From an uncultured Fibrobacter sp. (GTDB lineage Bacteria; Fibrobacterota; Fibrobacteria; Fibrobacterales; Fibrobacteraceae), in NCBI GenBank assembly GCA_946414025.1, contig CAMKMX010000006.1:1-64000 (forward strand): 64,000 nt of DNA, read 5' to 3'. Under the pieces are notes generated by a model. It made no database searches, was not told the origin of the DNA, and saw nothing but the letters and a program-made list of their open reading frames with translations. Each line of letters opens with the position of its first letter. The stretch's first letter is position 1. Below are positions 3,233 through 4,078 of the stretch, piece after piece. The position numbers and the translations under genes were made by a program.

Positions 3233-4078
3233 CTATTTGACCAAAATTTGCCGAACCTTTGTCACATTCCCAACAGAAACACGAACAAGGTACAATCCAG
3301 AAGGGATGGACTCAAAACTCACAGAATGATTAAGAGATCTCTTTTTCAAGTTACCCATCATGTCAAAGACAAGAATACTGACATCGGAACCTTGTGAATT
3401 TACCACCAACATGTTATCCGAAACAACAATTTCAAAGCCTTCGGCTGGCATGGGGTACAATGTCTGCGTCTCTCGACTTCCCGAACTAGACCCTGCGCCT
3501 TTTTCAGAGGAACTAGAAATTACACTTTCCGAATAACTCGACTCAATGTTTTGTGAAGAACTAGATTCTGCTATTTCCGAAGAACTTGACTCGATACTTT
3601 GCGAATAACTGGATTCTGCTATTTCCGAAGAACTTGACTCGATACTTTGCGAAGAACTGGATTCTGCTATTTCCGAAGAACTTGACTCGATATTTTGCGA
3701 AGAACTGGATTCTGCTATTTCCGAAGAAATTGACTCAATGTTTTGCGAAGAACTGGACGCATCATCCATAGAACTTGAACTTTCACCATGCAAGCGTTGA
3801 ACAAGGTGGAGGGTCGACTCTTTCCCTATATTGTAATCTGCCAAAGTATGACCATCTTCCAGTTGTTTCCCAGCAAAGATTAGTCGTTGTTCCTCCGTAG
3901 GAATGTTCTCCTTTCCCTGAATTTTCACCTTGACCGCATCTATGGAATCACTAGGTTCCACCTCCAACGTCAAAGTTTTTCCCGTCAGCATCTTTACAAA
4001 AATTTGCATCGCACAAACATTCGTTGCCACTACGAGAATCAACAGTGCAGCAATTCTTTTGTAAAACAACCCTTTCAT
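3233..4078 (-). CDS. Secreted ubiquitin-domain fusion protein with Ser-rich repeats and C-terminal sorting-like domain
   Basis: Residues 1-23 form a signal peptide ending NVCA; cleavage there leaves Met1 of ubiquitin as the mature N-terminus. Residues 24-99 align without gaps to ubiquitin: 59 of 76 positions equal the human protein by eye. All seven lysines, the L8/I44/V70 patch, R42, R72, D58 and H68 are kept, as is LIFAGKQLEDG. The last residues read RLHGE instead of RLRGG, so the conjugation tail is lost and chain continues into SSSSMDDA. Residues 108-187 are five 16-residue repeats (consensus SSSSQNIESSSSEIAE, the last one diverged). Residues about 215-281 resemble type IX-secretion sorting tails (VFDMMGNL, IPSGLYLVRV). 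A GGGAG Shine-Dalgarno lies 6 nt before the ATG. The gene looks more AT-rich than its neighbours. A eukaryotic origin and an extracellular role are inferred. Confidence 0.93.
   Translation of the reverse strand: MKGLFYKRIAALLILVVATNVCAMQIFVKMLTGKTLTLEVEPSDSIDAVKVKIQGKENIPTEEQRLIFAGKQLEDGHTLADYNIGKESTLHLVQRLHGESSSSMDDASSSSQNIESISSEIAESSSSQNIESSSSEIAESSSSQSIESSSSEIAESSYSQSIESSSSEIAESSSSQNIESSYSESVISSSSEKGAGSSSGSRETQTLYPMPAEGFEIVVSDNMLVVNSQGSDVSILVFDMMGNLKKRSLNHSVSFESIPSGLYLVRVSVGNVTKVRQILVK
3518..3757 (-). repeat. 48-bp coding tandem repeat (five units) in the ubiquitin-fusion gene
   Basis: Five consecutive 48-bp units encode 16-residue Ser/Glu-rich repeats. The middle units are nearly identical in DNA, while the first and last are more diverged. 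This is the expected form of a length-variable linker. Confidence 0.85.

Follow-up and report, generated by a model that had tools for sequence, protein, structure and literature searches.

A predicted exported ubiquitin with a serine-rich stalk and type IX sorting domain in Fibrobacter, and related fusions in other bacteria

Results

A gene at positions 3233..4078 (minus strand) of the window, the 64,000-nucleotide stretch of DNA from an uncultured Fibrobacter sp. that was analysed here, encodes a 281-amino-acid fusion protein in which a predicted leader, a ubiquitin domain, a stalk of Ser-rich repeats, and a sorting domain of type IX (T9SS) follow one another in this order. The assignment is based on the open reading frame together with matches to PF00240 and TIGR04183. 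Display of the fusion on the outer surface is a sound prediction, because the tail is matched, the T9SS machinery is matched in the same genome, and tail-bearing proteins of F. succinogenes S85 provide a precedent. Judging from the sequences, the architecture of leader, ubiquitin, and anchor is not confined to Fibrobacter. The initial annotation had considered a fusion of this form to be previously undescribed, and no description of a ubiquitin fused to a bacterial sorting domain was found among the open-licence PMC papers that the literature searches listed.

Domain structure of the fusion protein

The predicted signal peptide (residues 1-23; 4010..4078, minus strand) was assigned from the sequence and from the position of ubiquitin Met1, which is the same in 71 of 71 related proteins. 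It ends in VCA, which immediately precedes ubiquitin Met1 (residue 24) and fits the -3/-1 rule for signal peptidase I. The earlier placing of the ubiquitin directly behind the leader was thus upheld, with cleavage at this site as a prediction.

The ubiquitin domain occupies residues 24-99 (3782..4009, minus strand). PF00240 matched residues 26-96 with an E value of 7e-27 and 93.4 bits, exceeding the curated cut-off of 25.4 for the ubiquitin family. Counted over residues 24-99, 59 of 76 positions are identical to human ubiquitin with no gap, in agreement with the near-complete ubiquitin that had been claimed by eye. Alignment to human ubiquitin also bore out that all seven lysines (K6, K11, K27, K29, K33, K48, and K63) and the Ile44 patch (L8, R42, I44, G47, H68, and V70) are kept. 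The lack of a ubiquitin fold had been named beforehand as grounds for giving up the reading; the fold was predicted by PF00240 and by AlphaFold2, the latter with confidence (pLDDT ~92 for residues 31-90), and the 50 PDB matches listed by Foldseek were ubiquitins, ubiquitin variants, or ubiquitin fusions. The domain thereby resembles eukaryotic ubiquitin (PF00240) in fold, in 59 of 76 residues, in the seven lysines, and in the Ile44 patch, whereas it differs in belonging to a protein with predicted bacterial export and in an end that runs on into a stalk.

Ubiquitin positions 71-76 read QRLHGE in the window copy, so that residues 75-76 are GE instead of the C-terminal Gly-Gly of conjugatable ubiquitin. 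Given this end and the stalk behind it, the window ubiquitin should not be conjugated in the normal way, as the initial annotation had proposed from the same residues. Position 76 is Glu in 30 and Asp in 4 of 34 distinct related domains, and residues 24-99 of the window protein contain no Cys. No E2 enzyme was matched in the carrier genome, a search in which the control genomes gave no match either, and one ThiF-type match was obtained. In searches for the origin of the domain, eukaryotic (poly)ubiquitins dominated the best 120 of 7292 matches when the full-length protein was the query. When an alignment of seven Fibrobacter domains was used, the best 120 of 7990 matches were again mostly eukaryotic (poly)ubiquitins, with 50-81% identity to the window domain and no favoured eukaryotic group. 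No relative of the fusion was found in the viral contigs or the phage records searched.

The Ser-rich stalk comprises residues 100-206 (3461..3781, minus strand) and is predicted to be disordered (pLDDT <50 at residues 98-201). A repeat scan located in it a 48-bp tandem repeat (16-amino-acid unit) of 4.8 copies at 3526..3757 (minus strand), which accounts for the Ser-rich repeats noticed earlier. The sorting domain, residues 207-281 (3236..3460, minus strand), was likewise confirmed as a type IX tail by TIGR04183 (T9SS type A sorting domain; 35.5 bits, cut-off 23), with Pfam PF18962 at 24.8, below its cut-off of 27. AlphaFold2 gave this C-terminal domain a pLDDT of 82-92 from residue 221 on and seven strands, in agreement with the 3+4 beta-sandwich that is described for T9SS C-terminal domains (PMC11285876). 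The overall pTM was 0.32, and the domains have no confident placement relative to each other.

The carrier genome contains 21 T9SS tails, 17 of them above the cut-off, and the tail of the ubiquitin fusion is the second best. As to the machinery, there are a SprA_N match (77.6 bits, cut-off 27), two PorV-family matches above the cut-off, and a PorU-like sortase of 388.6 bits, which is below the cut-off of 420. Ser-rich stretches (at least 14 Ser per 30 residues) were present in 6 of the 13 other tail proteins examined for Ser content, out of 16 others above the cut-off. For the tail-bearing enzymes of F. succinogenes S85, none of the peptides from the mature proteins overlapped with the tail, and the authors interpreted this as removal of the tail with attachment to the outer membrane (PMC6851124); the tail-bearing cellulases described there are surface proteins. 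The window protein shares with this T9SS type A cargo the leader, the TIGR04183 tail, and, in some cases, the Ser-rich linker, but where that cargo has an enzyme or a binding module, the window protein has ubiquitin (PMC6851124).

Downstream of the gene lies a receptor-like outer-membrane protein gene (848..3214, minus strand; weak SusC/RagA and CarboxypepD_reg-like matches), and the divergent upstream gene, on the other flank of the insertion site, encodes a carbon-nitrogen hydrolase (4278..5033, plus strand; PF00795). The receptor-like gene was considered as a partner or immunity gene and set aside, as it is genus-wide (79 of 80 genomes). At this locus, to which the examination was confined, the flanking genes are also present in genomes without the ubiquitin gene. 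Promoter and terminator scans at the ubiquitin gene gave one site each, within chance. Upstream of the gene, at 4180-4250, the window has short tandem runs of a 14-base unit resembling CCTAGATCCTAG; similar letters also occur at the empty site of genome G051, and one further match is at 18568.

Carriage across Fibrobacter

PF00240 matches were obtained in 10 of 80 Fibrobacter genomes (1 of 40 high-quality ones) and in no other genus among the 167 genomes of the phylum. The gene is therefore not confined to one assembly, a point on which the earlier reading had been made to depend. Eight of the ten genes lie between the same hydrolase and receptor-like genes, and those of G065 and G026 are beside different neighbours. 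In three close relatives (G050, G051, and G056) the site is empty, 89-102 bp of gene-free sequence separating the flanking genes; G073, which is nearest by receptor gene, ends at a contig end beside the site and was not included in this count. In a receptor-gene tree of 30 of the 79 genomes with the gene, carriers and empty sites are intermixed, and carrier G014 is sister to empty-site G050 with support 1.0. The gene was therefore either lost repeatedly or gained repeatedly at a single site.

A search with residues 1-45 found 85 proteins, of which 74 were examined; a layout filter (requiring Met1 between residues 16 and 46 plus four consecutive Ser) dropped three and left 71 with the same layout. 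These 71 relatives are metagenomic and contain 34 distinct ubiquitin domains. Met1 is residue 24 in all of them, preceded by VCA (70) or VFA (1), and the same kind of tail ends 67, the other four being partial or frame-changed.

Several copies depart from this layout. G065 keeps the fusion architecture, with the Ile44 patch replaced by P8, T42, F44, and D47. In the G068 copy (L015:330-991 / L034), the reading frame is broken immediately behind the ubiquitin domain, and stalk and tail are found in another frame; this may be a sequencing error or decay. G026 (L026:8038-10203) encodes a second kind of Fibrobacter ubiquitin fusion of 721 amino acids, which keeps RLRGG and has GLUG-type repeats behind the ubiquitin, an adjoining uvrB gene, and a GC content like its surroundings; a GLUG match and no T9SS tail match was obtained in this protein. 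Furthermore, a partial protein of the Fibrobacter type (P0130) is deposited under a Treponema MAG on a 2,073-base contig, which is probably misbinned.

Sequence evolution of the gene

Among the 34 distinct domains, K6, L8, K27, K29, and K48 are invariant. R42, I44, G47, Q49, H68, and V70 are each kept in 33, K11 in 32, and K33 and K63 in 31, and the variable positions are mainly 7, 28, 32, 38, 62, and 71. Over residues 1-71, dN/dS between divergent Fibrobacter copies was 0.09-0.21 where computable, silent sites being saturated in several pairs, including every G026 pair, and the G065 values being obtained at dS >2. The ubiquitin domain has therefore been long maintained.

The initial annotation had suggested a decoy, an E2/UBD binder, or a chain acceptor against gut protozoa or the host, all of which may be regarded as candidate roles. 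The conservation described above would suit a mimic directed at eukaryotes (rumen ciliates, fungi, or the animal host), whose E2s, deubiquitinases, and ubiquitin-binding proteins would recognize the displayed domain as a ligand or as a decoy that they cannot cleave. The high identity to human ubiquitin with all seven lysines in the window copy, the origin of several carriers from the ruminant gut according to record titles, and the inhibition of ubiquitination in human cell extract by BfUbb of Bacteroides fragilis (PMC3352274) are consistent with this explanation. However, G065 is the strongest counterpoint, as its architecture is unchanged with the patch lost; this loss would speak against UBD mimicry as a general function. 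The patch is broken also in exported ubiquitins of Algibacter, Paludibacteraceae, and a Myxococcales contig, and the GE end rules out any use that depends on E1. Furthermore, Fibrobacter is, to our knowledge, not an intracellular bacterium, so that contact with cytosolic ubiquitin enzymes is doubtful. On balance, we consider a eukaryote-directed mimic somewhat unlikely; it is the chief alternative to the role proposed in the Discussion.

The divergence of the gene was compared with that of its neighbours. Silent divergence of the ubiquitin gene (leader, ubiquitin, and tail, with the stalk left out) was 0.015-0.046 among six closely related species, compared with 0.12-0.33 for the receptor gene and 0.12-0.36 for the hydrolase gene. 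It was lower than that of the receptor gene in 15 of 15 pairs (Fisher p 3.7e-4 to 2.7e-15), although these pairs are not independent of one another. When the region was divided into bins of 150 bp, the six that correspond to the gene (3210 to 4110) differed by 0.8-2.1% among the six species. Bins as low were found elsewhere at 5310 and 8310-8610, but there the divergence from G014 is low or moderate (6-18%), as against 15-32% within the ubiquitin gene. The gene is also AT-rich, with a GC content of 0.41-0.44 in seven of the eight syntenic copies (G015 left out) against 0.52-0.53 around them, and of 0.415 in the window against 0.541 for the window as a whole. Taken together, the low silent divergence, the bin profile, and the AT-richness say that the gene recently moved between species, was replaced, or swept, although metagenome assembly could blur this signal.

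Polymorphic codons of the ubiquitin domain in the six species were 8 amino-acid-changing (positions 12, 28, 32, 38, 62, 63, 71, and 74) and 1 silent. The corresponding ratios were 0:3 in the leader, 4:6 in the tail, 63:65 in the hydrolase, and 21:272 in the receptor, and the ubiquitin ratio differed from that of the receptor with a Fisher p of 2e-8, from the hydrolase with 0.03, and from the tail with 0.06. This amino-acid-biased change fits diversifying selection, although, with nine codons involved, relaxed constraint could also account for it.

Exported ubiquitins in other bacteria

A pattern scan that covered 84,980 species genomes returned 15 loci, nine outside Fibrobacter and six within it (identical to six of the genus genomes and counted once); AMQIFVKM was among the six patterns, so that hits favour Ala before Met1. 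The plasmid set added Ruminococcus albus 7 (plasmid pRUMAL01; 74% identical to the window domain) and two distant Pseudoalteromonas records, one of which was examined. The other carriers beyond Fibrobacter are Paracidovorax/Acidovorax, Pacificibacter, Algibacter, Paludibacteraceae, a Bacilli MAG, and a Myxococcales MAG, in which the protein runs off its contig. Like the window protein, the exported ubiquitins of R. albus 7 and of these latter carriers have a leader directly followed by an N-terminal ubiquitin, no GG, and a C-terminal extension, but the C-terminal modules are others (IPTL-CTERM, an autotransporter barrel, or other repeats).

Among 18 compared sequences, one (Fibrobacter G026) keeps GG, the G068 row being out of frame. 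Ala precedes Met1 in 16 of the 18 rows and in 12 of the 13 from outside Fibrobacter genomes, counts that are partly ascertained. It is also found in 5 of the 7 rows obtained without the Ala-Met pattern, namely those of the window, G014, G068, G065, and G026 (Thr), found with the domain model, and of R. albus and Pseudoalteromonas, found by tblastn of the domain. In the Pseudoalteromonas row, which the program misaligned, inspection by eye shows ILA ahead of Met.

The C-terminal part is a T9SS tail in Algibacter, an autotransporter beta-domain in Pacificibacter, and choice-of-anchor U with IPTL-CTERM in Paracidovorax, Acidovorax, and protein P0203. The Bacilli MAG protein ends in a sortase-like NPKTS by eye, with no family match, the Paludibacteraceae proteins are long repeat proteins with a T9SS tail score below the cut-off, and the family search matched no known anchor in the proteins of R. 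albus and P0202. Anchors, as recognized in the sequences, are thus present in some lineages of exported ubiquitins and not in all.

Two of these loci had further features. On pRUMAL01 (L065:7372-9182), the exported ubiquitin lies between two small exported proteins without ubiquitin, whose C-terminal parts resemble its own by eye, and a dockerin gene and transposition genes are nearby. In the Paludibacteraceae MAGs (L022-L024), a diverged exported ubiquitin heads proteins of 1171-1667 amino acids with InlB-like and BspA-like repeats, the number of which varies between MAGs.

The variation of anchors between lineages also bears on whether the ubiquitin is an adhesin or structural module, in which the domain would serve for stable display and attach to a surface such as plant fibre, mucus, or sibling cells, neither antagonism nor mimicry being involved. 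The Ser-rich linker and tail are a native Fibrobacter chassis, and the surface location of the tail-bearing cellulases of F. succinogenes would agree with such a role. Nevertheless, the patchy presence, the gene exchange, and the amino-acid-biased change exceed the needs of a plain structural module, and we judge this explanation unlikely.

Contamination, a chimeric assembly, or a decaying eukaryotic fragment would be in line with the largely metagenome-assembled or incomplete carriers, with the presence of the gene in just 1 of 40 high-quality Fibrobacter genomes, with the broken frame of G068, and with the low GC of the window gene. It is nonetheless very unlikely, because 10 of 80 genomes carry the gene, eight of them at this locus, and three relatives have the empty site. 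Moreover, the bacterial leader and tail are in frame, the 71 related proteins exist, and purifying selection was long-term. Isolate records (Paracidovorax, Pacificibacter, Algibacter, and R. albus) also contain exported ubiquitins, and in Paracidovorax, Acidovorax, Bacilli, and Algibacter the GC of the gene is within ~0.02 of its surroundings.

Discussion

The nearest known system in kind is BfUbb, the experimentally studied secreted bacterial ubiquitin. According to PMC5705921, BfUbb has a leader that ends at Met1 and lacks GG, acts as a diffusible antibacterial toxin that inhibits other B. fragilis strains, and was not seen to need an immunity protein. Its covalent binding to E1 was attributed to its C-terminal Cys (PMC3352274), and sensitivity to it is reportedly decided by a peptidyl-prolyl isomerase with a key Tyr119 (PMC12396204). 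As described in PMC3352274 and PMC5705921, BfUbb is like the window protein in a signal peptide ending exactly at ubiquitin Met1 (cleavage being predicted here), in the loss of the conjugating GG, in patchy carriage, and in AT-richness, and at the locus itself no immunity gene is apparent among the immediate neighbours of either gene. It differs in that the window-type gene is a single gene at a site between two core genes. BfUbb is, moreover, a free 76-amino-acid protein with a C-terminal Cys replacing the glycines (PMC3352274), whereas in the window protein the Ser-rich stalk and the T9SS tail add about 180 residues, the domain lacks Cys, and position 76 is Glu/Asp in this family. Since the C-terminal Cys is absent and the C-terminus is not free, the window protein appears from its sequence to be a tethered variant of the BfUbb kind and not a BfUbb member.

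On this comparison, we tentatively propose, with somewhat less than even confidence, that the fusion is a surface-displayed ubiquitin which engages and inactivates proteins of rival microbes, and that it is in this sense a tethered equivalent of BfUbb. Sec export and cleavage at the VCA site would make ubiquitin Met1 the mature N-terminus. The type IX system, as the tail and machinery matches suggest, would then take the protein across the outer membrane, remove the tail, and anchor the stalk on that membrane. From ubiquitin biochemistry, the Glu/Asp found at position 76 would be expected to block both conjugation and the clipping of the domain off the stalk by deubiquitinases. Finally, the stable ubiquitin fold may bind a target on neighbouring cells, as suggested by BfUbb, the patchy presence, the exchange, and the amino-acid-biased change. 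These last three features suit conflict. No dedicated partner gene was seen beside the fusion, the downstream gene being found across the genus, and this is likewise in line with a BfUbb-like role. A bacterial target would be at least as likely as protozoa or the host, because BfUbb is an antibacterial toxin.

Some observations are against this antagonism. The strongest is the near-invariance of the Ile44 patch in the main Fibrobacter family, a feature in keeping with a ubiquitin-binding partner from eukaryotes; this patch and most lysines are not obviously needed for a bacterial target. BfUbb has a marked C-terminal Cys and is diffusible, whereas the window ubiquitin lacks Cys and is predicted to be tethered. 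In addition, the excess of amino-acid change involves nine codons and could reflect relaxed constraint, and the PorU-like sortase is below the cut-off.

It is possible, though we hold this with more reserve than the antagonistic role itself, that surface-tethered ubiquitin is a recurrent class in unrelated bacteria. Its members would carry lineage-specific anchors (T9SS tail, IPTL-CTERM, autotransporter barrel, or sortase-like tail) and, with GG destroyed, be neither conjugated nor clipped off. They would act as contact-dependent binders against other cells, sweeping between Fibrobacter species while their surface diversifies.

A surface-anchored ubiquitin that is long maintained, passed between species, and kept on its stalk by the acidic side chain at position 76 would put a eukaryotic protein to a new use, in encounters of microbes with each other or with a host. 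The known BfUbb is diffusible (PMC5705921), and the ubiquitin here is predicted to be held by a sorting system. Besides Fibrobacter, the carriers R. albus 7, Algibacter miyuki, Pacificibacter marinus, and Paracidovorax oryzae allow tests in cultured isolates, which would tell whether bacteria employ ubiquitin folds generally to compete with one another or to mimic eukaryotes.
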